Source: Tridacna crocea
Lineage: Eukaryota; Mollusca; Bivalvia; Cardiida; Cardiidae
Direction: 5' to 3'
Assembly (NCBI GenBank): GCA_943736015.1
Contig: OX031063.1
Span: 4,321,001-4,385,000 of the forward strand
DNA length: 64,000 nucleotides
The notes beneath the pieces were generated by a model, which did not search any database, had not been told where the DNA came from, and saw only the letters and a list, made by a program, of their open reading frames with translations. The translations under genes and the position numbers were made by a program. Numbering within the stretch: the first letter of the stretch is position 1; each line of letters opens with the position of its first letter. Below are positions 6,033-53,786 of this stretch, in pieces.

Positions 6033-6137
6033 AGACGCGAGACATAGACCTTTTGTGGAATGCGTAGATTAAGATAAGACTGCGCAGAACTTGCAGTATG
6101 ATCTTAGATCTATTCCGTCTGAGAAGGCGATATTTTT
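6033..6137. repeat. GATCAAGATCAGACTGCAC hairpin family copy
   Basis: AGACTGCGCAGAACTTGCAG with TGATCTTAGATC, decayed. Confidence 0.5.
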
Positions 6138-7368: not shown

Positions 7369-7809
7369 TGAATTTAACACTTAAACAATTAAAATCTGAC
7401 CGTTCCTTCCCCGCCCCCTTTGATTATTTAACCCTTTACCAAACTAGTAGTTTAGATTTGACTACACATTTGTGATAACTGATTGTTGTCTGCCCTCTCC
7501 ACAAAATGTATACTTCTTCGGGCAGATGAAATCTTACATTTAAAAAAAAAAACTGTGAGGTCATAGGTCCTGTTACAGATTCTGTTCCGATTACAGAGAA
7601 CGAACAATATGGGCTAGAAGCTATTTAGGTGCGAAGCATTCGTAGTACGAAACAGACTAACCTATGACCTTTGACGTCTGTGACAACAAAACGAGTTTTT
7701 TTCCAGATAGGTAAAACGTGGTGCAAAAGAATTGGCCTTCTAAGCCATCTCGTACAAAATATTGAGGTGGCAAACGGTAAAAGATGAAATTGGTGTTTTT
7801 TACCAAACC

Positions 7810-9294
7810 ATGGCAAAAGCACAGAAAATGATCCATGATGAATGCGCTGAAATTTTAGTTCAATTTTCGACTGGAACCGAAAGTGCTGCTTTAGGTCGAC
7901 GAGCACCGGAAATTAAAGGGACTATGAAGGATGAACATTCTTATGCATACTCACTTAGAAAACAAGCCTTCGAAGGAAAGGAAAAGGATCACTCTTATTC
8001 GTTTAAAGATACAGAAACATTGAATGCTCGATCTTTACGATCTGAGAACGACGCGTGTATGCCGAAGGACCACAGCTATTCACTGTACAGGAGGTGGTAT
8101 ACCGAACCCAGGTATAGCATGTCGGATGAGAACATTTCTCAGAACCGTGACGATCACTGTGGTTACATACTACCTCATTATCAGTCAAGTGACAGTGCCT
8201 TGGATGTAACAGGCTTTGATAGCATATCAGAAAAATGTCTTTCATCTGAAAACCTCAATGTTAAAACTGTAGACGTGTTCACAGACCGATGCATTTTACC
8301 TGGAAAATCTGACCCAGATATTTCCAAAATGACCTTACAACCCTGTACAGACTTTATGAAACCTTCGTCCTTACCAAGTAGTTTTGAAAATGAAGTCGAT
8401 GGAAAAGGAATGATCATGGACCATAGTTACTCATCCTTCGCGAAACTACTCAGAGACAAGGGAAGTTCTACTTCAACAAGCAACTGGTCGCCATTACAGG
8501 ACCATTCATATAATTTGAGTGTAAGAGGACAACTTTTGGTATCTGGTGGTTTGAAAAGAGGACGTAGTATTGAGACTGTTGACCATATTAAGCACAACGT
8601 GCCGGAAAACATGAGCGTGTCAAAATCACCTTTCCTGGATCATACATATCAGTCCGTGGAGCTTAAAAAGTCAAGTTTGAAGAAGAAGAACAAATCACTT
8701 TTGATGATGAAGTATGATAACAGTAGTAAAACAGTAGAAGCTGACAGGGGTACAGAATCTGCAAGTAGATGTTCTGCTGTTCAGAAACAAGATAAATTTA
8801 AGTCCAGACCTCCTCTATATGATCATACATATGACAAAACAGAGACAGTGACAGGGATATTGTCGTCATCACGGTTTAGGTCAAATTCTTTATCTGATGT
8901 TGGTGAACACTCAGGAAAAAGTGTGCAAGATGGCAACAGAAAATCCTCAACAAGTACAACTGGTTTTTACGATGCTGTTAAAGCAGAAAAAGAACAAGTC
9001 AGAGCTCCTTTCTTTGACCATACATATGATAGAACTGATGAACCGATGGCAGGTTTTATGTCATCTGTAAAACTTCGATCAAATTCTTTATGTGAAGTCG
9101 AAAGCGATTTTCAGCAACGCTCTTGCAATGCTTTCGAACATGTGCGAATGGAAGATGACAGTGATAATTCTACAGATTCTGGGACGGAATCTTTAAATGA
9201 CGAAAACTGTGTTGACATGCCAATGATTGAAGATGTGAAAAGAGAAAGCTTACGAAAAGATCATTCGTATGTTTATAAGTCCAACACAATGTGA
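7810..9294 (+). CDS. Disordered protein with nine (D/E)HxY HCF-1-binding-type motifs
   Basis: Single-exon open frame of 494 residues. I start it at the ATG at 7810 because its context ACCATGG is a near-ideal Kozak site and the frame is closed by TAA at 7741; the stretch from 7762 has no ATG. The tetrapeptide EHSY, DHSY or DHTY occurs nine times, at residues 42, 60, 87, 204, 231, 277, 338, 403 and 484. This is the (D/E)HxY consensus by which E2F proteins, CREB3, CREBZF and PGC-1 bind the HCF-1 kelch domain (established knowledge). Residues 338-364 and 403-430 are an internal duplication, each DHTYD followed about 20 residues later by RSNSL. The rest is Ser, Thr and Lys rich with an acidic tail near 449-466. 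I see no folded domain, signal peptide or membrane segment. A T-rich acceptor-like site ends at 7705, so an untranslated upstream exon is possible. I do not recognise the gene; a nuclear HCF-1 partner or scaffold is inference. Confidence 0.8.
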   Translation: MAKAQKMIHDECAEILVQFSTGTESAALGRRAPEIKGTMKDEHSYAYSLRKQAFEGKEKDHSYSFKDTETLNARSLRSENDACMPKDHSYSLYRRWYTEPRYSMSDENISQNRDDHCGYILPHYQSSDSALDVTGFDSISEKCLSSENLNVKTVDVFTDRCILPGKSDPDISKMTLQPCTDFMKPSSLPSSFENEVDGKGMIMDHSYSSFAKLLRDKGSSTSTSNWSPLQDHSYNLSVRGQLLVSGGLKRGRSIETVDHIKHNVPENMSVSKSPFLDHTYQSVELKKSSLKKKNKSLLMMKYDNSSKTVEADRGTESASRCSAVQKQDKFKSRPPLYDHTYDKTETVTGILSSSRFRSNSLSDVGEHSGKSVQDGNRKSSTSTTGFYDAVKAEKEQVRAPFFDHTYDRTDEPMAGFMSSVKLRSNSLCEVESDFQQRSCNAFEHVRMEDDSDNSTDSGTESLNDENCVDMPMIEDVKRESLRKDHSYVYKSNTM

Positions 9295-30400: not shown

Positions 30401-33400
30401 AAAGAGTCGGCTTGGATTAGTTGGAAAGTCCGCACAGACTAATCCAAAATGACACTTTCCATTCTTGCGTAGTTTTCTGTATTGAAAGTGTAGTCGTAAA
30501 GTGCTGTCTGGGATCAGTTTGCGTAGAATGCGAGATGACACCTTTAGCGATACCAATGCCCCTTCTTGTGTGTGCGGGCCTTATCATTTTCTGTAGAAAT
30601 GGTTTAATCAACTATAAATGAAGAAAGAGAAAACAACCTACTTTTTGGCTTTACCCCTGTATTTATAAGCTGGTGCTGAATCTGGGTTCAGTTCAATAGC
30701 TTTATCACAATCATGTATGGCAGCTTTCAGCTTCTTCATTCGGATGTAAGCTCTGAAATATGGGCAAGCAAAACGAATGTCCATGATATTGTTTTTCATT
30801 CAAACTTTAACTTAACTAGACTGGTTTTACTTCTAATTCACGACGCTCACAAAGGCTCATGTCATACAATCTTACTCAACTTGTTTGATAAAAGTGATAA
30901 TACATAAACACTTGTGTAAAATTTTCTATGTAAAATAGAGATATAATAGATCTGAAATATATGTAAAAACAGACTTACTGAGCTCGCTTTGCATAGAACA
31001 TGGCTGAGTTAGGATTTAATTTTATTGCTTCAGTGAACAATTTTATGGCTTCATCCATGTTCCCTGAAAAAAATAGAAGAGAAATTCCTCATTCTTAACA
31101 ATTTCTTTTTCTGACACAATGTTTTTCACATACACGAAAAATCTCAGTAAAAGTCAATCTATTACATAGTTTCATGATGATCAATTTTAAACTCGTATAC
31201 ACTGCTATTTCACAGAGAAAATCTATGCCAACTACAGATTACCATCACTCAAAGCTGCCATGGCCTCCCCTCTCTTATCATTGGCTTGGTCCATTGATTC
31301 CTCCGTGACTTCAATATCCATTGATGGATACTCGGGCATAAAATCATCTGGGTCCTCCACTACTCCAGTATTATCCAATTCTAGATAAAGAAAAGAATTA
31401 CTGTTTTAGACATACAAAAAAAGTACTTACTCTTTCCCACACAAGAAAATTCTAGACCGGTCAAAATTGACAGCATTTGCAGATAACAAAATAAATGAGA
31501 CTAAAATATTGAAATTTGGTCTGGGAAGGGAATAAAACATTGTGGGAAAGGAGAAAATGCTGGTTACCAGCATTTTCTTCTTTTCCCACAATGTTTTCAA
31601 AAGGCTTCTTTCTCAGGATTGTTAAAAGTAGGGACTGTGTGGTAAATAGTTAACAGTTATCAAGACCAACAAAGAAAACAATATGTCTGAACACATGGCA
31701 GTAACAAACAGTGTGAGACTTTCAGTCACCCATTACAAAACAATCCCATGTAAACACAGTCCTAAGGAATGGTTTTAAATGCATTATGTGAAAAGGGCGG
31801 AGAGCAGCATTTACTCCTATTTTCATAATGTTTTTCATCTTTTGTAGGACATATCCCGTAAGTTTATCAAAATTTCAAAGTGAGGTCTGCAAATGCTTGC
31901 AGTATGGCATTATACATCACATAAGCACTGAAGACAAATTCTTCAGTCTCGTGCAAATTAAGACCTTTATTCACATCTAGTAGTAGAATCTTACAAGCTA
32001 TACTGAGAAAATCAAAATTTTGCATTTCAGTCTCAGTCAAGTTGTGCAGCCACTTGCGAAAATATTACCAATGACCTTAATTCTATGACATGAATTTCAA
32101 TCTTTCACAAATATCCTCTACAGATTGCTCAAATTAGTTTCAACATATCTATTATGCACTGACTGAGAGCTAGCACTAACCTCTCTGGATTCTGCTTCCT
32201 GGAAACTCTACCAGTACTTAAGTCACATGTTTGTGCCAATGAATAGGCCTAAAGTTGACACTCACTAACTGGTATCAAATGATACTCAAAGAAGAATGAA
32301 GGTTAGAAAATATTGTGGGAAAAGGAGAAAATGCTGGTCACCAGCATTTTCTCCTTTTCCAACAATATTTTCTAAAAACCTTTTTCTTCCTTAAAACTTA
32401 AACCTTTTTCTTCCTTAAAACTTAAACTATTTGGTAAGGAGTTAAGCTGTGATATCATGAAAATAGATTTGGGAACAAGGAAGTATAAGTTGGTGATGTC
32501 AAACAGAGAAGACTCTCGTAACCCTTTACCAACTACCATCTTATCTTCATAACCCTGAGAAAAAAGGCTTTTGAAAATATTATAGGAAAAGGAGATTATA
32601 CTTTCAATACATGTATTTTCAAAGAAAAGCTCCATCACACCAGCTAAATATAACATGTCATACCAAATGCAATCAAGTCTCAAACTTTGTTGTTTGGTAT
32701 AGATCTAAAGGATAAGAAACAGAGACCTACCAATATCACTTTCTTCACTCTCGGGCTCCGGCTCAGGTTCGGGTTCAGGCTCCTTGGGCTTTGCTGGTTC
32801 TGGCTGGGGCTATTTCAAAAAAAGAAACCAAATGTTACGGGGTTTTTTTGCCATTCTTTTTCCCCCATTGTTTCATGTAGACTTTGATACATCTAATCTG
32901 GTCGTCACAGACTGTTTTCTATCATTTTCAACAGAAAAAGAGGGCCATCATGCATGCCCCTGCATTGCTCCACTGGCAAAGCATACATACAAAACCTTTC
33001 AATTTTAAGCGAAATGGTTTAAATCTTTATCAAATAATCTGGACTTTTCACAAACCTGAAAGAAAAGCCTTTGAAAAACATTGTGGGAAAAGGAAAAAAT
33101 GCTGGCAACCAGCATTTTCTCCTTTTCCCACAATGTTTTATACCCTAACAAAGATAGAAAATTCACTAGTTTAACAATATAAAATTCATCATCTGCAAAT
33201 GCTTTCAATTTGGTCCATTTTAGTAATTTTGCCATTTGGTAAACAGTTAAAGAAGACTTATGAAGTTTTGCCTGCAAAAGCTGATGTGAAACTTGTTACT
33301 CCAGGGTGATGCAATTTTTGACAATTTGGTAGTCCCACGCTCCACCTAAAGAGTTCAGCTGAGCAGAGATATTAACTCACAACCACTGAAATGGTTCCTG

Positions 33401-34290
33401 TGTTTGAACAAATCAGCTCCCTTGACAAAGTGATAGTGAAGCTCTGTATGAATCTTATCAACAGGATGCAAATTTTAATATTTATTTCATACCTCTGGTT
33501 CTGGTTTTGGTGCATTCTGTGGAGGTGGTGGAATATTTGCTCCCATGCTGAAAAAACAAAGCATTGAACTATGTACAATTTATCAACTTAACTCTTTCCC
33601 ACACAATCCCGACTTTTAACGACCCTGAGAAAAAAGCCTTTTGAAAACATTGTGGGAAAGGAGAAAATGCTGGTAACCAGCATTTTCTCCTTTTCCCACA
33701 ATGTTTTCTACCCTTCATAAAACAAATTTTAATTTTTTATTCACATTTTATTTCTAGTCTGCAAATGCTCTAAATTTGGACTAGTCCAAAAAATTGTCGT
33801 TTGGTAAAGAGTTAAATAATGAAGCTGGAATTACACAATGAAGGATTAAGTATTATATGTATATTTCTTGTAATAAGAACTCCCCGGAGCTGTGAAAAAC
33901 ATAGATAGGGAGCCTTTATTTTTGTACCCAATTTGGGAAGCAAACGGTTGGTCCAGTTTTGCATTTCTTTGTGTATTAGTGATTGTTAACTCATTACCAA
34001 GCGACTATATTTTAGGTTTGCCCAAATAGAAAGCAATTAGACGACAAAATAAGAGTGACTGAAAATTTGAAATCAGTTTTGTGAAGGGTAGAAAACAGTT
34101 TGGAAAAAGGAGAAAATCTTCCTATAGTTCATTAGAACTTGGAACTGTCTGGTAAAAGGTTAATTTCCTACCTTTCAAGCCATTCCTTCAGGAATCCCAA
34201 CTCTGGCATGTGAAGAATGCCTGGATTGGACTTGATCATTTGAATAAACATCTTCAACTGGGTGAGTTGTTGCTGTGGTATCCCACTCAT
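21476..34290 (-). CDS. ST13: Hsc70-interacting protein Hip (ST13), 11 coding exons
   Basis: Co-chaperone of Hsc70/Hsp70 in the cytosol. Coding exons: 34290-34172, 33547-33493, 32809-32731, 31380-31243, 31063-30979, 30752-30642, 29856-29754, 28520-28404, 26677-26527, 22738-22665, 21712-21476. All have GT/AG borders and matching phases and give 1269 nt, 422 residues plus stop (human ST13 has 369). Order: N-terminal dimerisation segment ([20 protein letters not shown], ending [14 protein letters not shown]); Pro/Glu linker ([13 protein letters not shown]); three TPR units over exons 4-7 ([48 protein letters not shown]); a charged helix ([18 protein letters not shown]); four FPGGMPGG repeats in exon 9; and the C-terminal DP/STI1 domain ([37 protein letters not shown]). 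An extra tail with six prolines ending FDVD is longer than in mammals. The introns hold over twenty TTAA MITEs; no exon is hit. Confidence 0.97.
21752..21917. mobile_element. Palindromic MITE, AAGAGAGAGTGAT ends
   Basis: Ends AAGAGAGAGTGAT and ATCACTCTCTCTT. Central perfect palindrome built on ATTAGAATCGTCTCGATGAG. Lies in the last intron of ST13. Confidence 0.75.
21937..22167 (-). mobile_element. TTAA MITE in ST13 intron 10
   Basis: Left TTAA mutated to GAAA, right GTGTGGTAAAGAATTAA. Confidence 0.92.
22404..22588 (+). mobile_element. TTAA MITE subfamily B without hairpin, ST13 intron 10
   Basis: Deletion removes the whole palindrome between AAAACATTG and CAACAATG; both ends intact. Confidence 0.9.
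22987..23216 (-). mobile_element. TTAA MITE in ST13 intron 9
   Basis: Both TTAA intact. First hairpin arm carries ATTACGGG. Confidence 0.93.
23287..23415 (+). mobile_element. TTAA MITE fragment, ST13 intron 9
   Basis: Left end AAACCTTTTTCATACAATCC and GTTTGTTGTCTGCGAATGC; core lost. Confidence 0.6.
23425..23648 (-). mobile_element. TTAA MITE in ST13 intron 9
   Basis: Both TTAA ends present; TCTTGATAGGGTCAAAAAC middle block. Confidence 0.9.
23645..23831 (-). mobile_element. TTAA MITE lacking its first 40 bp, shares TTAA with neighbour
   Basis: Starts AAAGCATTTGCAGATGAC. Both hairpin arms carry CCTTG/CAAGG in place of CATTG/CAATG. Confidence 0.85.
23942..24172 (+). mobile_element. TTAA MITE in ST13 intron 9
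   Basis: CCCATTACCACACAGTCC and TGTTTGGTAAAGGGTTAA ends. Confidence 0.94.
24425..24597 (-). mobile_element. tRNA-derived SINE, family S1
   Basis: Minus strand reads GTGAGGTAGAGCATTGG (A-box-like) and AAGTTCAATACC (B-box-like), then the conserved body around CTGCTCCCTGG on the plus strand. Confidence 0.65.
24603..24814 (+). mobile_element. TTAA MITE, diverged, ST13 intron 9
   Basis: Left end absent; hairpin loop TGTTGTTAATCAGCATT; right GTGGAAAAGAGTTAA. Confidence 0.75.
25030..25325 (-). repeat. Dispersed 300-bp repeat, opposite orientation copy
   Basis: CAGACAGGCTGATTCCAG and CAACTGTAGGAGTTTGCGAC mirror the 11.7-kb copy. In an ST13 intron. Confidence 0.65.
25538..25763 (-). mobile_element. 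TTAA MITE in ST13 intron 9
   Basis: TTAATTCTTTACCAAACAAC and GTGTGGAATAGGTTAA ends. Confidence 0.93.
25888..26117 (+). mobile_element. TTAA MITE in ST13 intron 9
   Basis: Left GTAAACCCTTTACAAAAC, right GTTTGGTAAAAAGTTAA. Confidence 0.92.
26145..26301 (+). mobile_element. TTAA MITE fragment, ST13 intron 9
   Basis: Only the right hairpin arm and right end (CCATTGGTAAATGCTTGA) remain. Confidence 0.65.
26325..26405. repeat. GATCAAGATCAGACTGCAC hairpin family copy
   Basis: AAGATCGGACTACACACATA with GAGCCTGATCATCAATC, in an ST13 intron. Confidence 0.45.
26700..27660. other. ST13 intron 8 stretch without recognised repeats
   Basis: AT-rich intronic DNA, no clear repeat or exon. Confidence 0.5.
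27664..27825. mobile_element. Second copy of the AAGAGAGAGTGAT palindromic MITE
   Basis: Shares GAGACGATTCTAATGAGTAT and the ATCACTCTCTCTTATCT end with 21752-21917. Left arm diverged. In an ST13 intron. Confidence 0.65.
27864..28092 (-). mobile_element. TTAA MITE in ST13 intron 8
   Basis: Both TTAA intact, perfect 30-bp hairpin. Confidence 0.95.
28195..28282. repeat. GATCAAGATCAGACTGCAC hairpin family copy
   Basis: TAGATCAAGATCAGACGAAA pairs with TTCAGTCTGATCTTAGATC, closing in ACACCATCC. In an ST13 intron. Confidence 0.65.
28599..28829 (-). mobile_element. TTAA MITE in ST13 intron 7
   Basis: Left TTAG, right GTAAAGAGTTTAA; abuts the next copy. Confidence 0.93.
28826..29034 (-). mobile_element. 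TTAA MITE, diverged, stacked on the preceding copy
   Basis: ACTCTTTACTAAACGATAAA left; right end decayed to GTAGTACAGGG. Confidence 0.8.
29145..29355 (-). mobile_element. SINE S2, diverged, with G homopolymer inside
   Basis: CAGTGCCCCTATGCAC, CTTCTAATACCAGTACTG and head remnant CCAACCACCAGGTCACG. Confidence 0.55.
29274..29289 (+). repeat. G homopolymer
   Basis: About 16 G inside a SINE-like copy. Confidence 0.9.
29470..29665 (-). mobile_element. tRNA-derived SINE, family S1
   Basis: B-box GAGTTCGATACC on the minus strand; body TCTCTTGATTCTGCTTCCTG on plus. In an ST13 intron. Confidence 0.7.
30025..30248 (+). mobile_element. TTAA MITE in ST13 intron 6
   Basis: Left TGAACCCTTTACCACAC, right GTTTGGTAAAGAGTTAA. 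Hairpin arms GCAGG / CCTAC. Confidence 0.92.
30345..30580. mobile_element. CTCGGATYAGCCTG foldback MITE, diverged copy
   Basis: AAAAGGGGCATTTGGACA left end and GCCCCTTCTTGTG right end with AGTGCTGTCTGGGATCAG inside. In an ST13 intron. Confidence 0.65.
31426..31653 (-). mobile_element. TTAA MITE in ST13 intron 3
   Basis: Left TTACTCTTTCCCACAC, right GTGTGGTAAATAGTTAA; 46 nt from exon 4. Confidence 0.93.
31732..31905 (+). mobile_element. Decayed TTAA MITE, ST13 intron 3
   Basis: CATTACAAAACAATCCC and GTGAAAAGGGCGGAGAGCAG recognisable. Confidence 0.5.
32135..32285 (-). mobile_element. SINE S1, head truncated
   Basis: Body CTCTGGATTCTGCTTCCTGG and ACCAGTACTTAAGTCACATG; tRNA-like head mostly lost. 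Confidence 0.6.
32300..32445 (-). mobile_element. TTAA MITE right part, with a tandem TTTTTCTTCCTTAAAACTTA pair
   Basis: Hairpin loop TGCTGGTCACCAGCA, right end TTTGGTAAGGAGTTAA. Confidence 0.75.
32519..32710 (+). mobile_element. TTAA MITE, hairpin eroded, adjoining ST13 exon 3
   Basis: Left GTAACCCTTTACCAAC, right GTTGTTTGGTATAGAT; ends about 20 nt from the exon 3 donor. Confidence 0.75.
33019..33250 (+). mobile_element. TTAA MITE in ST13 intron 2
   Basis: TTAAATCTTTATCAAATAAT and CATTTGGTAAACAGTTAA ends. Confidence 0.9.
33598..33815 (+). mobile_element. TTAA MITE in ST13 intron 1
   Basis: TTAACTCTTTCCCACAC and GTTTGGTAAAGAGTTAA. Same intron position and orientation as 52020-52239 in the duplicate. 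Confidence 0.94.
33986..34163 (-). mobile_element. TTAA MITE, deleted, abutting the ST13 exon 1 donor
   Basis: Hairpin deleted after GGAGAAAAT. Right end CTGGTAAAAGGTTAA is 8 nt from exon 1. Counterpart at 53.6 kb. Confidence 0.88.
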
Positions 34291-34320
34291 CTTGAATTAG
34301 CTATCAGTGTGACCTCTTTC
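34291..34320 (-). other. ST13: ST13 5' UTR segment of exon 1
   Basis: The sequence TACCTTCCAG at 34321-34330 (read on the minus strand) is a splice acceptor 30 nt before the ATG, so ST13 has an upstream untranslated exon. The same acceptor (CTTTCCAG) and leader are kept in the duplicate at 53757-53786. A possible non-coding first exon ends with donor GTAAACAC at about 35058; its start cannot be placed. Confidence 0.6.
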
Positions 34321-44178: not shown

Positions 44179-44494
44179 ACAGACATCTATTCAGATAAAT
44201 ATTTCTTTACTGATAATATTAGTCCTTGAATACCTAATTTCTCCTAATAAAAGTGCCCTCCCTAATAATTGCTCCCTCCCAAGAAAAACCCTTTATTAAA
44301 TCATGGACATTAGTTGATTAAAATGACAATATTAAAAGAATTCAATGAATATATCCTCTAATTTGATCAATATTTCCTCTTAGCAATCACTAAAACACAT
44401 AGAAAATACATAACTGGACACTCTTTTTGTAGTAAGTGATTTACTCAATAATTTCTTCACTGCTTTACCAATAAATTTATGTATGGCTTGCTAC

Positions 44495-44976: not shown

Positions 44977-45039
44977 AGCTATGATTAACAGAGAATTATC
45001 TATATCTTTTTGCAGGAAGGGGCAGGCATGCAGTACAAC

Positions 45040-45230
45040 GCAGTGCAGGCAAGCAGGAAAGAAGGCAGTGCAGGAAGGAAGGCAGTGAAGGAAGGAAGGC
45101 AGGAAGGAAGGAAGGCAGGGAGGGAGGAAGGAAGGAAGGAAGGAAGGGAAGGAAGGCAGGGAAGGAAGGGAAGGAAGGAAGGCAGACAGGAAGGAAGGAA
45201 GGAAGGAAGGAAGGAAGGAAGGAAAGGTTT
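45040..45230 (+). repeat. (GGAA)n-type microsatellite with GCA interruptions
   Basis: Purine-rich run of GAAGGAAG units. Long frames on both strands across it are artefacts of composition. Confidence 0.95.
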
Positions 45231-45331
45231 TCTGACATATCTGCTACTTCTTTAACTTTTAGCTAGACTAAAATGTGACAATGGGTGAAAAAGAGTCCAA
45301 ATTTTGCAGACAAACATATCTATGTACACAC

Positions 45332-48300
45332 CTGTATAGTTTTATCTTTGGGTTATAGATCCCAGCTTCCTCTTTCATTTCGTTCATCATGTTGTATATT
45401 TTGTTCACTCCCAGAGCGGATTTCTTAAACCAAGACTTGTGTTCATTACGACAAGGTGTTAAGAAAAAAGGGCTCTGGTCATCTAACATATCCTCAGGTC
45501 TTTTACTTCTATAAAGCTTGTACAAATAAACAGGATCTCTCTGCTCATTTTCTGAGTTTGCGTAGGCTTTTGGTTTGATCATCCTGTATCAAAATTAACT
45601 TTTTGACAATTTGGATCAGTCTTACATTTTGTTGTTTGGTAAAGAGTTAAACACATAAATGGTTGTGTGCCACCACTGTTATTTTTTGGAAGGCTTTAGG
45701 TTTTGTCAACTACTAGTATTTTATGAATAGATTGAAATCAGAGATATATAAAAAATGGGACCAATTATCTAATTGTATTGGCTTGTACTGAAGTTTAAAG
45801 CCTTTACCACACAACAAAATTTTGGACTTGTCACAATTGAACGCATTTGCAGGCAACAAAATAAAGGTGACTGAAAAATTGAACTTTGTTCTGAGAAGGC
45901 TAGAAAACACTGTAGGAAAAGGAGAAAATGCTGGTTACCTGCATTTTCTCCTTTTCCAACAGTGTTTTCAAAAGGCGACAAAATAAAAGTGACTGAAAAT
46001 CTGAAATATGTTTTAAGAAGAGTAGAAAACAGTGTGGGAAACAAAGATATGACAAAAGATTTTTCAAAACACAATAAAAGGTAACAAATATTTCGTTTCA
46101 GACTATTTGATTATTCTCATAAATATTCCTCTGTATAACTCAGTACATCTCTAACATGTGACCCCAGAAATGGGGCTAAAATTTGAAAAAATTTTATTCA
46201 AGACCACATGATCACCCTTCATGAAAGGGCCTTTCGATAAATTTGTGAATTTTGTTGTGAAAATAAAATTAGTCGACCAATTAAGACCATTTTCACATAC
46301 ATATTAATCTATATCCAATTTAACATACTCCGAATTTCATACAGATTCATGTAGAAGTACTTTTTCAGCAGAATATTGGTCTTATGACTAATGCGTACCG
46401 TGTATCCCTTGGATTTGAACCAGGTTGGGTTTTCATCGGAATTTCCTTGTCATACATAACATACTCTTCTCCTGAAACTTCGTCAAACCCTAGTTTAACA
46501 TCTCCCCAACACAGGTCATGACGTTCCTTTCCTGTCCGCATGCCAAAGTGCGAGGTACAAATGAGCCACATAGAATGAATAAGGGCTTTGGGTGTCTTGT
46601 CCCCTAGAGTGCCAGCTTCCAGCATTGCTTCGATGTCATCTTCGGTCAAACTTCTGGCAGCTTTAGGTCTGTTTCCGAGACCCAAGCTTTTCAGCTGCTG
46701 CAGTTTTCTCTTAAGAACAGCCCTAGTCTTTGCAAATTCGACATCGTTAAATATTGACATTTTACTGGGTGTTCTCTTCAGATGTCTATCGAGCGATGAA
46801 ATAAAGCCCCTGAGAGTCGTCGCCTCATACTCAGAACCGTCTTTTTTGGTAATCCCAACGATAAACTGACAAACATATTTATCCAGTTCATATGGGGGAA
46901 TGTCTTCAGGAATTCTTGTTTCATCTTTTGTCATCAGAAAGGATGAAAAGAGTTTTACATCACTTTCAGTTTTTTTCTTGGTATTGTAGTTAGAAATTTC
47001 CCCAGGGAATTCATCTGGATCGAAGGCCCTAAGAAAATCGTCTGGCTCTGTAAAATAAACAAATTCCTAAGTCTCATAGAAGTATGACATAACTCATCAA
47101 AACATTTATATTCTTCTTCCTGAACAGATTTAACTCTTAAACTAAACTTTAACTCTTTTCCAAATGACAATATTTTAGGTTTATCCAAATTGACAACATT
47201 TGAAGATGACAAAAATTTGAAATTTTCTTCATAAAGGGTAGAAAACATTGTGGGAAAAGGAGAAAATGCTGGTTACCAGCATTTTCTCCTTTTCCCCACA
47301 GTGTTTTCAAAAGGCTTCTTTTTCAGGGGCGTCAAAAGTAGGGATTGAGTGGTAATGGGTTAAACAAGGTAAATAACTCTTTCAGTCTTTTATAGTACAG
47401 ATATTGCCTAATTCATTTAACCTGATCCTGACGTATATGCTGAATATGTAAGTAGGCACAACATAGACAGAAGTTAGACTATGATTCAAAAAGTTATATA
47501 TACACGGAAAGTCCTTATATACACCAGTAATCAATCTAACCCTTACCCTACAAAGCACAACTTAAGGCACTTTCACAGTCCGTGTGGATCAAGATCAGAC
47601 CGCACAAAACATGCAGTCTAATAAAGGAACTATGCTGACGGAAGAGGAGATATTTCTCCCAAAAATTGAAAATGCAATATTTGCTTTTTTCACTATTGAC
47701 CAGAAGGTCTTAATTACTTATCTAGTAAGTTAGGGGTTTACTTGACTGGGGTTAACCCCACAAAACATTTCCAAGACCATTTGAGACACAGGCCCTATGC
47801 TGAGCGATGTAGAGGGTAAAAATAGAATCAGGATCATAAAAACCAGGGACTGTTTGGTGAAGGGTTAAATGAAGTAGATAATATAAATAAGGGAAACTAG
47901 AAAATTAAGCGGAGGCATTATATCATGCCTACCATGTGGGATTTAGTTATGTAACTCATAAGCTGTGAAAAGTAGAGGCCCTTGAGGGCCTCAATCGCTC
48001 TACTGGCATCATTAACTCTGTATGAAAAGACAAAATTTTAGACTTGTCCAACTTGAAAGCACATGCAGGTGACAAATGTGATTGAAAAATTGAAACTTGA
48101 CTTTTGAAGAGTAGAAAACACTGTGGGAAGAGGAGGAAATACTGGTAACCAGCATTTTCTCCTTTTCCCACAATGTTTTCTACTCTTCCCAAATGAAATC
48201 TTAATTTTTGAGTCACATCAATTTTGTCGTCTGCAAATGCTTTCAATTTGGACCAGTCAGAGCTTTGTAGTCTGGTTAAAAGAGTTGAATGAATGATTAA

Positions 48301-49237
48301 TGAGCAAGACAAGAGGGAGTAACTACACCCTTCAATCCTTCAATAATCATATTGACTAAAATTCGTGGAAACACACGTGAAAAACTTACCTGGTGTACCA
48401 AGTTGTTTGACAATAGGTCCATCTGAACTGTTTTCTTCTTGATAATCTTCTTCCGCGTCTGAGGTTCCTGCCTTCTGTAACTGTTGATCCGTCCACTCTG
48501 CAACTACCATGTACTCTTTACATCCATCTGCCTCACTGTTGTCACTATCATCGTCAAGCTCCTTCCTCACGACTGTAGTAACAAGATTTCTTCTATCCAT
48601 GCTAAAACCACCATTCCCAGTCTGCTTGTTGTTTTCGGCAACTTTCCTTAGTAATTTAGATGAGATTCTTTCTACAGATTTTGACCTTTTAGCTTGTGTA
48701 ACAATGTTTTTGTTATCTGTGCTGTCTGTGTCTATGTTTGCTAAATTATCTGTAATGGACTTGTCGGACGAAGTTGATGTGAAGGTCTCCGTATTCCGAA
48801 CCAAATGACTCCTCCGTTTATCTGGGGCTTGTTTGTGAAACTGTTTCTGAACACCTCGCTGACCTCTTGTCTGCTCTTCCTCAATGTCTACATCAGTGAG
48901 AGAATCCTCATTTTCATCCACTTCTTGCTTTACGATTACAGGTAACTCCAAAACGTTTGTATTTTGGACTGTAGATATCAATGGCCTTACTGGAACCCCC
49001 GAAAAATCTTCATACGCCTTGTTGGCCTCTGTGAAATAATCCTCGTCTGAGAGGGGTTCCTGTTTTATAATTATGTCACATGTAATATCAGATACTTCTT
49101 TTGATAAACTGGTGTCTATTTCCATACTAGTTCCCCTGCTCCCTACTAAGTCTACCTTCCACTTCTTCTGGGCACTCTTACTGTTTCCTTTAGACTCTCC
49201 TTGCTTGCGTTTCCAAGTCAGAGGGCACTTAGCTTCA
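45332..49237 (-). CDS. Crypton-derived tyrosine-recombinase-like (DUF3504) protein, 3' end not found
   Basis: Three well-supported exons: 49237-48390, 47047-46399 and 45583-45332, with matching phases (2, 1, 2) and consensus splice sites. The first encodes about 282 disordered residues with two SUMO-consensus sites in acidic context (IIKQEPLSDED and VIVKQEVDENED) and basic patches. The second opens EPDDFLRAFDPDEF and carries the domain shared by KIAA1958, QRICH1, KCTD1 and ZMYM2/3/4, which descends from Crypton transposon tyrosine recombinases. The retained Arg sits in FGMRTGKERHDLCWGDV. The third (DPVYLYKLYRSKRPEDM, then FFLTPCRNEHKSWFKKSALG) is the usual continuation. The HxxR/Tyr catalytic end is not found. 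The frame stays open in phase 2 at 45332, and a 45-nt candidate exon (43839-43795) fits that phase. Either a domesticated host gene (favoured by the long regulatory N-terminal exon and introns) or an old transposon. Confidence 0.8.
45604..45649 (+). mobile_element. TTAA MITE right-end stub beside the Crypton-gene exon
   Basis: TTGTTGTTTGGTAAAGAGTTAA-type end 21 nt upstream of the 45583 acceptor. Confidence 0.65.
45799..46045 (-). mobile_element. Rearranged TTAA MITE
   Basis: Complete left half and hairpin, then a second copy of GACAAAATAAAAGTGACTGA instead of the right end. Confidence 0.8.
47149..47363 (-). mobile_element. TTAA MITE in the Crypton gene, upstream of the 47047 acceptor
   Basis: TTAACTCTTTTCCAAATGAC and GAGTGGTAATGGGTTAA ends. 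Confidence 0.93.
47570..47655. repeat. GATCAAGATCAGACTGCAC hairpin family copy
   Basis: GGATCAAGATCAGACCGCAC then CATGCAGTCT, with the family's GAGGAGATATTT right flank. Confidence 0.55.
48012..48288. mobile_element. Right-right foldback TTAA MITE, 277 bp
   Basis: Both ends are the AAATTTTAGACTKGTCCAA type, giving inverted repeats over the whole element. Complements the left-left form at 11255-11417. Confidence 0.8.
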
Positions 49238-49313
49238 CTGCAGTGGAAAAAAAAGCATCTTGACAGACACAGAAACAAGTTGGATGATTAATGAACCCAA
49301 TATTGGTGAATGA

Positions 49314-49526
49314 ACCCTAATCCCGACTTCTAACCCTTTACCACATGACAACAAGATTTTAGACCTGTCCAAGTTGAAGCATTAAAATTTGCTGATTTTC
49401 TTTGAAAGGGAAGAAAACATCGTGGAAAAAGAAGAAGGTGCTGGTTACCAGCATTTTCTCCTTTTCCCACAATTTTTTCAAAAGCCTTCTCTTTCAGGGG
49501 TGTTAAAAGTCATCATTGTGTGTTGA
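49314..49526 (-). mobile_element. TTAA MITE preceded by a stub of another copy
   Basis: CTAATCCCGACTTC stub runs into TAACCCTTTACCACATGAC. Right end GTGTGTTGAAC. Confidence 0.78.
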
Positions 49527-49530
49527 ACGG

Positions 49531-49730
49531 TGATTGACACAGAGAAGGAAAAGCCTCTAAAAGCATTGTGGGAAAAGAAGAAAATGCTGGTAAATAGCGT
49601 ATCTCCTTTTTCCACAATCTTTTCCACCCAATCAAAGACAGAAATCATAACCTAAGGTACATTACAGTTGTCATCTACAAATGCTTTCGATTCCGTCAAG
49701 TCAAATATTTGTTTGTTAGGTAAGGGATTA
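49531..49730 (+). mobile_element. TTAA MITE, diverged
   Basis: GAAAAGCCTCTAAAAGCATTG and TTTGTTAGGTAAGGGATTAA. Confidence 0.75.
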
Positions 49731-49986
49731 AAACAACTCCATACAACATAGCAAAATCGTCAAACCCAGTAGTGCGGTCAGTATTAGGCAGGACTTGACA
49801 CCAGAGAGTTTCCGGTTCAAACCTCCTGCTCAACAAATTTATCTCTGAGATCTAATCATTGCCAGACTAAAAATTAATAATGAATAATATAAAATTGAAA
49901 AGAATTTTTACTGTAAAGCTGAGTACACTAGCATCTGCCATACTTCTTAGCACTGATGTATTCAGATGTATAAATAGTAATTTAGT

Positions 49987-50208
49987 TTAACTCTTTACCA
50001 CACGAGAAAATTTTAGACGGGTCCAAACTGAAAGCAGATGACAAAATAAAGGCGACTTAAAAATAAAAATTTGGTTTGTGAAGGGTAGAAAACAGTGGGG
50101 GAAAAGGAGAAAATGCTGGTTACCAGCATTTTCTCCTTTTCCCACAGTGTTTTCAAAAGGCTTCTTTCTCAGGGTCCTTAAAAGTCTGGATTGTGTGGTA
50201 AAGAGTAA
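49987..50208 (-). mobile_element. TTAA MITE, right TTAA mutated
   Basis: TTAACTCTTTACCACACGAG left, GTGTGGTAAAGAGTAA right. Confidence 0.93.
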
Positions 50209-50211
50209 AAC

Positions 50212-50432
50212 ATACTTATTTTACATTGATTGGGAAACCAGTTCTAACAGCTTACAGTACCGTAATCTCTCTTGATTCAGCTTCCTGGGAACTACACCAG
50301 TGCTAATGCCGAATGTGTGGGCCAATGAAAAATCCAAAAGTTGACACCCACTCCCAGGTATCAAACTCAGGACCTTGTGGTTACGAGACAGATACTCTAC
50401 GTCACAGCCACAAGACACCAGACTAGTGATTT
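50212..50432 (-). mobile_element. tRNA-derived SINE, family S1, most complete copy
   Basis: Minus strand A-box-like GTGACGTAGAGTATCTG and B-box-like GAGTTTGATACC; body CTCTCTTGATTCAGCTTCCT. Serves as the uninterrupted reference for the MITE insertion at 2583. Confidence 0.7.
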
Positions 50433-50602
50433 GCAGTATAGGTAAAAGATATGGACATGTTAATTTTGGCAGGTCCCTACAAGCCTATTTACAGTCACAG
50501 TTATGGTACTTAAGTATTATACAGGGTTGCTACTGCTAGCTGATAACCCAGGGTTAATTAAAACACGGAAAAAAACTAATAATAGGTTAATAACAAACTT
50601 AC

Positions 50603-50684
50603 AATCTTTGTCTGTTAAACTTCCCATAATTGTGACGCTGACTATCACAGCCTTCTGTTGTGCTACCAAAGTCTGTCTTCATAT
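50603..50684 (-). CDS. Candidate linking or first coding exon of the Crypton-derived gene
   Basis: An 82-nt segment between GGAACTACAG (acceptor) and GTAAGTTTG (donor). Entering in phase 1 it reads DMKTDFGSTTEGC, then DSQRHNYGKFNRQR, with no stop, and leaves in phase 2. These are the phases needed to join ST13-like exon B (ends phase 1) to the exon at 49237 (starts phase 2). The second codon is ATG, so this could instead be the first coding exon of an independent gene. No RNA evidence; predicted from splice signals only. Confidence 0.45.
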
Positions 50685-50704
50685 CTGTAGTTCCGAAGAA
50701 CAAA

Positions 50705-51010
50705 AAAAACAAGAGTGACATGATGGCATGAAGTCGCTCACCTGAGCCTTTTGACCAAACATGACCCATTTTCAATCTCTTCCGAGATACTATGACAATC
50801 TACCAAGCCTTCATAATTATTGGAATGAAAATTTATTTGGCTTCTAGCTTGTATACAAGCCTTTTTTCAAGAATTTTTCTCTGTGACCTACTTTTTTTTG
50901 TTAAACATAGCCCATTTTCAAGTCAAATGATATCATCAAAAAGATTTCTGATCATCTTTCATATTTATTGGACAGAAAACCTGGCCTCCAGAAGGTACAC
51001 AATGTAATAC
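50705..51010 (+). repeat. 5' part of the 145-bp tandem family
   Basis: Starts ACAAGAGTGACATGATGGCA then TCGCTCACCTGAGC and CATGACCCATTTTC, the head and first units of the family at 62 kb, truncated on the right. Confidence 0.65.
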
Positions 51011-51036
51011 AAGATTTGACAAAGTCACGTAGTTTT

Positions 51037-51240
51037 TTAACTCTTTGCCACACATTCCTGACTTTTAACAACATTGAGAAAGAAGCTTTTTGAAGAAAAC
51101 ATTGTTGGAAAAGGAGAAAATGCTAGTAAAATGCTATCCTTGCCTTACTGAATTTCAATTTTTCAGTCACCTTCATTTTGTCGTCTACAAATGCTTTTAA
51201 TTAGGACAGATCTATAAATTTGTTGTTTGGTAAGAGTTAA
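51037..51240 (+). mobile_element. TTAA MITE lacking the second hairpin arm
   Basis: TTAACTCTTTGCCACAC and TTGTTTGGTAAGAGTTAA ends. Confidence 0.88.
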
Positions 51241-51277
51241 CCAATATAACACATTTTCAAATTCATCATATTGATCA

Positions 51278-51512
51278 TTAACCCTTTCCCAAACAATCCC
51301 TGGTTTTTACGGGTCTGGAATAGTAGCCTTTTGAAAAGTGAAAACATTGTGGGAAAAGAAGAAAATGCTGGTTACCAGCATTTTCTCCTTTTCCCACAAT
51401 GTTTTCTACTCTATCATAGACAGAAATCATCTTTTCAGCAAGATTTGAATTGTCATCTGCAAATGCTTTCAATTTGGTCTAGTCCAAAAATTTGTCGTTT
51501 GGGAAAGGGTAA
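51278..51512 (+). mobile_element. TTAA MITE subfamily C, complete
   Basis: TTAACCCTTTCCCAAACAAT left, GTCGTTTGGGAAAGGGTAA right. Confidence 0.94.
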
Positions 51513-51951
51513 ACACAAACATTCTTAATTTAACACTGTAAAATATACTCTTCCTCAGTTGCACAAGACATATTTGAAAAAAAAAGAAGCTGAATCCAAG
51601 TAAAACACGTTAGGAACGGAAAATATTCCCGAATGTTTGTAACAAGGCTGCACATAATAGAGGCCAGGACAGCCCTTTTACCTTTGGCATGATATGTTCA
51701 AATTCTTTGTGGATTGATCTGCAGGTAATCAAATCCCTGCATCTCAGATCTATGAGTATCAAACTGAAAATGCTGCTAGAAAGCAGACAAGGTTTTTCTA
51801 AGAATTGTCCCTGTGACTAACTTTATGACTTGATGTGACCCAAGTTTAAGATAGTCCACAATATCATCAAGCACAAACCTTCTGACCAAGTTTCATTAGT
51901 ACCACTCTAAAAGTGTGGCTGCCAGAGACCTAACAAGACTTTGCTACCTAC

Positions 51952-53786
51952 CTTTTGATCCAAAGGTGGGTGGAGGTGGTGGTATTTTTGCTCCCATACT
52001 GTAAATTAAAGCAAAGCATTTAACCCTTTACCACACAGTCCAGACTTTCAAATACCCTGAGAAAGAAGCCTTTTGAAAACTTCGTGGGAAAAGAAGAAAA
52101 TGCCGGTAACCAGCATTTCCTCCTTTTCCAACAATGTTTTCAAACCTTCTCTAACCAAATTTCAATTTTTCAGTCACATTTATTGTCGTCAGCGAATGCA
52201 TTCAATTTGGACTGTTCTAAAGTTTTACTGTGTGGTTAATAAATACAAAGTTCAGATATAAAAATTTGTATTTATACAATGCAGAATAGAGTGCCATACC
52301 ATGTGTGAAAGGGGGAGGGGGAAAGAAAAAAGAAAGAAGATGGCTGCCAGATTTCTTCTGTTTTCAACAATCTTTTCAAATGCATCAGTGTAATTAACCC
52401 TTTACGTGACAGTGTTGACTTCATTATCAAACGACAATATTTTAGACTCGTCCAAATTGAAAGCATTTGCAGATGAAAAAATAAAAGTGACTGAAAAATT
52501 GAAATTTGTCCTGGGAAGGGTAGAAAACACTGTGGGAAAAGGAGAAAATGCTGGTTACCGGCATTTTCTCCTTTTCCTACAGTGTTTTCAAAAGGCTTCT
52601 TTCTCAGGGGCGTCAAAAGTAGGGATTGTCTGGTAATGGGTTAAAGGCATGGACTGATGGAGAAATAATACTTCTGAAAACAATGTGGGAAAAGGAGAAA
52701 ATGCTGGTAACCAGCATTATCTCCTTTTCCCACAATGTTATAAAAAAGGCTTTCTTCAAAGGCATATTAAAAACTCTGGATCATTGTGTGATTGTTAGGG
52801 GAGATCACTCCTTTCTTACTGTGTAGCCTCCGCCTGTATACTATAAAATGAATACCTACCGACTCTGTTAGTAAGAAATCTCTGTACCTCAGTGTTTATG
52901 ATTTTGGACCTTAAAACCTTAAAAAAAAGGATATCTGTCCACACCAGCTCAACTCCCGCAAGGTGCAATTTGTATTTCAGTAATGCATTCTATGCAAACT
53001 TTCATGTTTGAAAGATGGCTGGCCCGGGAGGCTCGTCCAGGACTGGCCATTGAGACATTTGTTGTCTAAATAATGGAGTTACTGCCTAATACGGCATTCT
53101 ATCATCAAAATTAAAATCAATAACAAACAACTGCATTAGCGAGAACTCTTTTTAGCTCAAAGGTTATGGTGTTTGTCTTTTAAACCTCGAAAAACAAGGA
53201 TATTTGACCCCGAGAGTTCAAATCCCTTCAGATGCAGTTTGATTTCAGCTTTGCATTTATTTTTTCAGACAACACATTAACTGTGACTCAAATGATGAAA
53301 TGAGGAAATACCGGTACTGTATAAGTGGAAATTTTTCTTTTTTGATATGGAAATTTTTGTCCTTTTGAGAATTTGAAACATTCACAAACTTTTTTTACAT
53401 ATTTTACTACAAGTACATTACGCCAACAAATAATAAGTGTCTTGAATTTGCAAGCATTTGGGTTTGCTACATGTCTGTAGTCGGTAATTCCCAAAATTTT
53501 CGACATCTGTATAACTTTTTATCCATGTATACAGTACTACATACTAGCACTACTTTTTTTCTCACAATGTTTTCAAAGGCCTTCTTCCAAAAGGTCATTA
53601 ATCCTCGGGATTGTTTGGTAAAAGGTAAATATCCTACCTCTCAAGCCATTTCTTCAAAAATCCCAACTCTGGCAAGTGAAGCATGCTTGGATCAGACTTA
53701 ATCATTTTAATTAACACCTTCAACTGGGTAAGTTGCTGCTGCGATATTCCACCCATCTTGAATTACCTATCAGTGTGACCGCTTTG
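51952..53786 (-). CDS. Duplicated ST13 5' exons (partial Hip-like N terminus)
   Basis: Exon A is 53756-53638 (ATG at 53756, leader to 53786) and exon B is 51998-51952. Exon A encodes [20 protein letters not shown] and ends LHLPELGFLKKWLER. It is exactly as long as ST13 exon 1 (119 nt), has the same phase-2 donor and the same upstream acceptor. Exon B encodes SMGAKIPPPPPTFGSK, matching ST13 exon 2 and then diverging. No TPR, GGMP or STI1 exons follow. A TTAA-MITE right end lies a few bases past the exon A donor, exactly as in ST13, so the copy is a segmental duplication. The frame is open, so it is not clearly a pseudogene. The downstream neighbour on the same strand is the Crypton-derived gene, and a fusion transcript is possible. 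Confidence 0.85.
52020..52239 (+). mobile_element. TTAA MITE beside duplicated exon B
   Basis: 22 nt upstream of exon B; TTAACCCTTTACCACACAG and GTGTGGTTAA ends. Confidence 0.92.
52394..52644 (-). mobile_element. TTAA MITE preceded by a left-end stub
   Basis: Stub TTAACCCTTTACGTGACAG to GTTGACTT, then CATTATCAAACGACAATAT. Confidence 0.85.
52672..52798. mobile_element. TTAA MITE core, probably left-left foldback remnant
   Basis: CTTCTGAAAACAATGTGGG and complement flank the hairpin; ends eroded. Confidence 0.6.
52870..53000 (+). mobile_element. tRNA-like SINE fragment, family S3
   Basis: GTACCTCAGTGTTTATG head and CAGCTCAACTCCCGCAAG resemble A and B boxes; paired with a second copy at 53095-53245. 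Confidence 0.45.
53095..53245 (+). mobile_element. tRNA-like SINE fragment, family S3
   Basis: TAGCTCAAAGGTTATGGTG (A-box-like) and GAGTTCAAATCCC (B-box-like) with the same AAACCTYRAAAAACAAGG spacer as 52870-53000. Confidence 0.5.
53540..53626 (-). mobile_element. TTAA MITE right end abutting duplicated exon A donor
   Basis: TTTTCTCACAATGTTTTCAA to TTGTTTGGTAAAAGGTAAAT, same spacing to the exon as 33986-34163. Confidence 0.75.

Follow-up and report, generated by a model that had tools for sequence, protein, structure and literature searches.

A candidate chimeric gene of Tridacna crocea with Hip, MYT1-type and Crypton-derived recombinase exons

Three groups of exons in one open frame

A stretch of 64,000 nucleotides from the bivalve mollusc Tridacna crocea (GenBank assembly GCA_943736015.1, contig OX031063.1, positions 4,321,001 to 4,385,000), called the window below, carries on its minus strand six exons spanning 53756-45332; their phases match, and when joined they read open for 665 codons (Table 1). 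Each of the six is preceded by AG and followed by GT. We think it probable that they constitute one protein-coding gene made from three older pieces, namely the N terminus of Hip (the product of ST13), a portion of a MYT1-type zinc-finger gene and a Crypton-derived recombinase, and we are somewhat surer that Hip exons were joined to MYT1 exons at all than we are of the full three-part gene. The original prediction already described a six-exon open frame, and its exons 1-4 and 6 stand as given there. Its fifth exon is one base off: with 47046-46398 the joined frame has stops, and 47047-46399 is used here instead. Related genes were sought in this one genome, the contigs of which include C4, C8 and C13.

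Exons 1 and 2 duplicate, as first proposed, coding exons 1 and 2 of ST13; the full gene lies on the same strand within the window. Exon 1 and ST13 exon 1 share 84% DNA identity (expectation value, E, of 2.5e-32), and the 55 residues encoded by exons 1-2 match the Pfam family HipN (E=1.6e-17). The Hip part also matches PDB entry 4j8c, the solved N-terminal domain of Hip (E=2.6e-11), which we take to be a dimerisation domain. The proposed distance of 2.7 kb from the duplicate to the next solid exon (51952 to 49237) is likewise correct, as is the statement that no further ST13 exons follow: exons from number 4 on, encoding the TPR and C-terminal regions, were found only in the full ST13 gene within the 214 kb of C8 searched. 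Like ST13, the window gene would encode its N-terminal domain in two exons whose splice positions are largely kept. Unlike ST13, it is without the later exons, and its second exon has a new donor phase, the phase-0 donor having been lost and a phase-1 donor being present. It is this donor that keeps the frame in the absence of a clear ST13 exon 3.

A genome search with Hip exon 1 uncovered three copies. Upstream of the ATG they resemble each other for only about 60 bases, and the suggestion that the promoter of ST13 had been captured has so far not been borne out. The outer half of this likeness consists in all three copies of a pyrimidine stretch followed by an acceptor-like AG. Because this arrangement resembles the end of an intron, it is possible that a separate first exon lies further upstream.

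Exons 3 and 4 had been regarded as part of a DUF3504 gene, an assignment that we reject. They give no DUF3504 match, the domain being confined to exons 5-6, and they match only two other places in the genome: a C2HC zinc-finger gene on C4 and a second Hip-MYT1 arrangement on C8, termed copy B. Identity to the C4 gene is 63% across query residues 3-276, and the matching exon pair there (C4:1363211-1364653) encodes a clean zinc finger of the C2HC type (E=4.1e-13) and, after it, an acidic region. A genome search for this type of finger gave 10 matches, seven of them on the same strand within C4:1363226-1407812 and an eighth at 1455774; we infer that the seven belong to one gene. The best PDB matches to the first C4 finger are KIAA0535 and MYT1 (2cs8, 2mf8). 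A search for the MYT1 domain PF08474 found no match here and none in the control genomes either.

The finger has deteriorated in both C8 copies. The C4 finger has five conserved Cys/His positions. Two of these are changed in the window copy, the first Cys to Ser and the second His to Gln, and two in copy B, where the first His and the last Cys are both Tyr. The Pfam scores for C2HC are 49.6 bits for C4, 13.3 for the window copy and 16.5 for copy B, with the window score under the cut-off of 32.3. The window gene has a single finger, and no second C2HC finger was found in the C8 region. In the acidic region, two motifs of the VKQE/IKQE type, presumably sumoylation-type lysine sites, are common to the three copies; another such motif is altered in the window copy. 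The window gene is like the MYT1 family in having the first finger exon and the acidic region, with splice phases as in the C4 gene, and unlike it in holding only the N-terminal piece, with a finger that is missing two conserved Cys/His positions.

Neither the MYT1 part nor the recombinase part appears to have brought its own start. For the C4 gene, candidate start exons comprise an ATG at position 6086 of locus L048 and a second exon at L048 7375-7432 that leaves in phase 1. A search of 214 kb of C8 gave no credible match to either (best E 4.5 for protein and 0.064 for DNA), and we reject the idea that the first exons of the MYT1 parent survive in this region. The ATG noted earlier within exon 3 is indeed present, two bases into the exon, but this position reads TTC in its paralogues. 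Because both copy B and C4 read TTC, the ATG is best described as a private change of the window copy, and the ancestral exon would have required an upstream start.

The third group, exons 5-6, matches DUF3504 (PF12012) with E=1.6e-23 and 84 bits versus a cut-off of 29.7. There are 57 matches to exon 5 in the genome, some of which are pieces of one copy, and 31 have internal stops. The closest relative found, named as such by matches and not from a tree, is a decayed copy at C13:13243648-13244263 (L008) that has stops and frame shifts and an intron at the same place. Its ATG lies some 30 codons ahead of the region shared with exon 5. This start has no match in the window, where similarity begins at about 47056. 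Exon 5 itself is preceded by an in-frame stop eight codons away with no Met between, and its first Met is residue 38. Because of this upstream stop, the late first Met and the unmatched C13 start, the recombinase part would seem to be without a start of its own and to begin at an acceptor that fits the phase of exon 4.

In relatives, the catalytic tail of the recombinase contains NHSTRK, GHK and NY, which we take to hold the R-H-R-Y catalytic tetrad. Neither tblastn nor a profile search found this tail in the window, where the best profile match is exon 6 itself, and none of the 78 genome matches to the tail falls there. The tetrad of the window DUF3504 part is evidently incomplete, as judged from these searches. 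A PDB search with this part gave weak matches only, of which QRICH1 was the best (E 0.4).

Table 1. Features of the candidate chimera, the full ST13 gene and copy B (window positions unless C8 is given)
Feature	Position (strand)	Remarks
Exon 1, duplicate of Hip exon 1	53638..53786 (-)	Coding 53756-53638, 119 nt from ATG; leaves in phase 2; an acceptor-like AG immediately precedes 53786
Exon 2, duplicate of Hip exon 2	51952..51998 (-)	47 nt; phase-1 donor (full ST13 exon 2 leaves in phase 0)
Exon 3, MYT1-derived (putative)	50603..50684 (-)	82 nt; degenerate beginning of C2HC finger 1; enters in phase 1, leaves in phase 2; private ATG
Exon 4, MYT1-derived (putative)	48390..49237 (-)	848 nt; end of finger 1 and acidic region; phase 1 out
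Exon 5, DUF3504, Crypton recombinase-derived (putative)	46399..47047 (-)	649 nt; phase 1 in; without the start present in the C13 relative
Exon 6, second DUF3504 exon	45332..45583 (-)	252 nt; if the donor is unused, the frame continues to a stop ending at 45268
Candidate AATAAA polyadenylation signal	44292..44297 (-)	Downstream of last exon; one of several such motifs
Full ST13 gene, exon 1	34172..34320 (-)	Relative of the duplicated exon; full copy runs downwards from 34320, same strand as chimera
Full ST13 gene, exon 2	33493..33547 (-)	Leaves in phase 0
Full ST13 gene, exon 3	32731..32809 (-)	Leaves in phase 1, the phase that the MYT1 exon requires
Copy B, ST13 exons 1, 2, 3	C8:4491448-4491330, 4490351-4490303, 4487811-4487739 (-)	GT-AG sites
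Copy B, MYT1 exon pair	C8:4485898-4485817, 4479753-4479008 (-)	GT-AG sites

Copy B, selection and competing readings

Copy B (C8:4491448-4479008, minus strand), whose exon 1 is 117 kb upstream of window exon 1, comprises five exons that are in phase and open for 356 codons. At its join, the exit phase of ST13 exon 3 and the entry phase of the MYT1 exon are both 1. Its end is less clear-cut, with two possible donors for the last exon or a stop soon after.

These phases also permit a reading in which the duplicated Hip exons serve as alternative first exons of full ST13, splicing past the chimera exons to ST13 exon 4 (first base 31380), which is located on the same strand 20.6 kb further downstream. 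This exon enters in phase 1, the phase of the donors of both exon 2 in the window and exon 3 in copy B, and the purifying selection on the window Hip part described below would also be compatible with such a role. However, splicing of this kind must bypass four exons that lie closer as well as the first exons of the full gene itself, must reach across 135 kb from copy B, and would leave the copy B MYT1 exons, which are open for >250 codons, without a start. We consider this the least probable of the alternatives, and a very improbable one.

Estimates of the ratio of nonsynonymous to synonymous change (dN/dS) were made by simple counting over few sites, and those for the window copy and copy B are branch estimates. 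For the window copy, dN/dS is 0.20 in the Hip part (53 codons; dN>=dS in 0/1000 bootstraps) and 0.43 in the MYT1 part (259 codons; dN>=dS in 14/1000). In a neutral simulation with substitutions only (5000 runs), the MYT1 part remained open in a fraction of 0.0002 for the window copy and 0.0008 for copy B. An independent MYT1/DUF3504 gene could begin at the ATG of exon 50684-50603, with the Hip exons present as a dead duplicate or an untranslated leader, and a Hip part of about 55 codons might stay open by chance, as noted below. We regard this arrangement as unlikely, given the low dN/dS of the window Hip part, the lack of the ATG in copy B and C4, and the in-phase Hip exons found at the same place in copy B. 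The start of the gene in Hip exons, one half of the Hip-recombinase chimera that the original prediction envisaged, is on these grounds well supported by copy B and by selection. The other half requires amendment, since the middle of the gene is MYT1-type and DUF3504 is a third source.

Several observations weigh against the proposed three-part gene or against its simplest history. In a neutral simulation of the same type, the short Hip part was open in 0.14-0.22 of runs, which is not rare. The Hip part of copy B has a dN/dS of 2.0 and shows no constraint (dN>=dS in 702/1000 bootstraps), and its MYT1 part, at 0.56, is constrained only weakly (40/1000). Relative ages are discordant as well. Synonymous differences to ST13 in the Hip part number about 4/34 for copy B and about 14/34 for the window copy (rounded; Fisher p=0.012), and the two MYT1 parts differ from each other at about 66/158 synonymous sites (versus the 4/34 of copy B Hip, Fisher p=0.0007). 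By this measure, the copy B Hip exons are younger than the split of the two MYT1 parts, and copy B and the window copy did not arise by plain duplication of a single fusion. Because their synonymous distance to ST13 is low, the Hip exons of copy B would have been renewed by gene conversion or joined later. Furthermore, a clear ST13 exon 3 was not found in the window copy, where the best match of 14 bases was matched by 6/300 shuffles. A looser alignment of the C13 5' region with the sequence upstream of exon 5 was equalled by 43/500 shuffles. Finally, DUF3504 exons like those of the window were not found downstream of copy B, so the third join is represented by the window copy alone. One candidate near copy B, a match to exon 5 at C8:4469974-4469780 (E 0.001), was rejected, the enclosing open frame being otherwise unlike exon 5.

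In another reading, exons 1-4 would be a Hip-MYT1 gene of the copy B kind, with exons 5-6 belonging to a separate neighbour gene or to a decaying Crypton copy. The failure to find such DUF3504 exons at copy B and the many copies of the element elsewhere in the genome would agree with such an arrangement. It is nevertheless hard to reconcile with an exon 5 that is preceded by an in-frame stop, has no Met in its first 37 residues, does not match the start of its C13 relative and has an acceptor whose phase fits exon 4. The DUF3504 part is also under constraint, with a pairwise dN/dS versus C13 of 0.23 (277 codons, bootstrap 0.16-0.34), a value that includes the C13 branch and excludes stop codons and gapped codons. 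We therefore judge a separate DUF3504 unit to be very unlikely, and favour the three-part gene.

A possible course of assembly and its significance

Under the favoured reading, 5' exons of ST13 precede a duplicated pair of N-terminal MYT1 exons, for which the original start exons were not found here. The join is phase-compatible, as copy B shows, with ST13 exon 3 leaving and the MYT1 exon entering in phase 1. In the window copy, a clear ST13 exon 3 is no longer present and exon 2 ends in a phase-1 donor, with the frame maintained. The C13 relative shows that the recombinase gene once had a start of its own; the window gene is without it and has an acceptor close to the corresponding place, in phase with the exon 4 donor. 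The six exons would be spliced into one mRNA, the product of which might pair through the Hip N terminus and would bear the acidic MYT1 region with its two lysine motifs and the finger missing two conserved Cys/His positions. Its terminal recombinase fold, with the catalytic tail missing, may be used for binding (DNA or proteins) and not for cutting. Such a product could act as a dimeric nuclear regulator comparable to the ZMYM and QRICH1 proteins.

A broader proposal, which we offer only tentatively, is of a locus that gives rise to Hip-headed regulators again and again. Its Hip 5' exons would have become attached to N-terminal MYT1 exons on two or more occasions, or have been refreshed by gene conversion, and a Crypton recombinase would have been added once, giving dimeric, catalytically dead DNA- or chromatin-binding proteins that are kept by selection.

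In host-transposase fusion genes, host 5' exons are spliced to a transposon-derived exon through an acceptor. The window gene is similar in that host 5' exons precede a transposon-derived exon with an acceptor, and differs in that its element is a tyrosine-recombinase Crypton with two unrelated host pieces in front. Known DUF3504 domains derive from animal Crypton recombinases, have typically lost most catalytic residues and have been suggested to serve in DNA or protein binding (PMC3212892). Genes with this domain include WOC, ZMYM2/3/4, QRICH1, KCTD1 and KIAA1958, in which, as predicted for the window gene, the Crypton-derived domain sits in a longer host protein that is often a regulator with other DNA-binding domains (PMC3212892). 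Unlike the candidate window gene, the genes listed there are without a Hip or MYT1 part (PMC3212892). The nearest relative found for the window domain is a decayed copy in the same genome. No report of a Hip-MYT1 or Hip-DUF3504 fusion was found among the items listed by literature searches, at the level of titles and the beginnings of abstracts.

When a gene arose long ago from a transposon protein, the traces of its joining have usually been erased. In this case a single genome still contains relatives of each of the three pieces, namely ST13 close by, a MYT1-type gene on C4 and a decayed recombinase on C13, together with the intermediate-like copy B. Individual steps can be read from the sequence, including loss of the donors' starts, phase-matched introns, a new donor or acceptor, and loss of zinc-binding positions. 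If true, the chimera would show how existing parts can be assembled into new regulatory proteins.

Surrounding sequence

Two open frames that look C2H2 zinc-finger-like by eye (C8:4462844-4462248 and 4452076-4451570, minus strand) lie between copy B and the window gene. On the plus strand of the window, open frames at 1319-2365 and 7744-9294 encode 348 and 516 residues without a Pfam match, and a Pfam search with six window open frames other than those of the candidate gene gave no match. The palindrome GGAGAAAATGCTGGTNACCAGCATTTTCTCC occurs 60 times (<=3 mismatches) within window positions 2656-55293, or about once per kb, and 0 times in 100 shuffles. Its core is also present in the copy B and C4 loci, and it looks like a very abundant repeat of the miniature inverted-repeat transposable element type. 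Whole-locus comparison is dominated by dispersed repeats, and a long CCTT-type simple repeat (window 45000-45250) lies directly 3' of the last exon.

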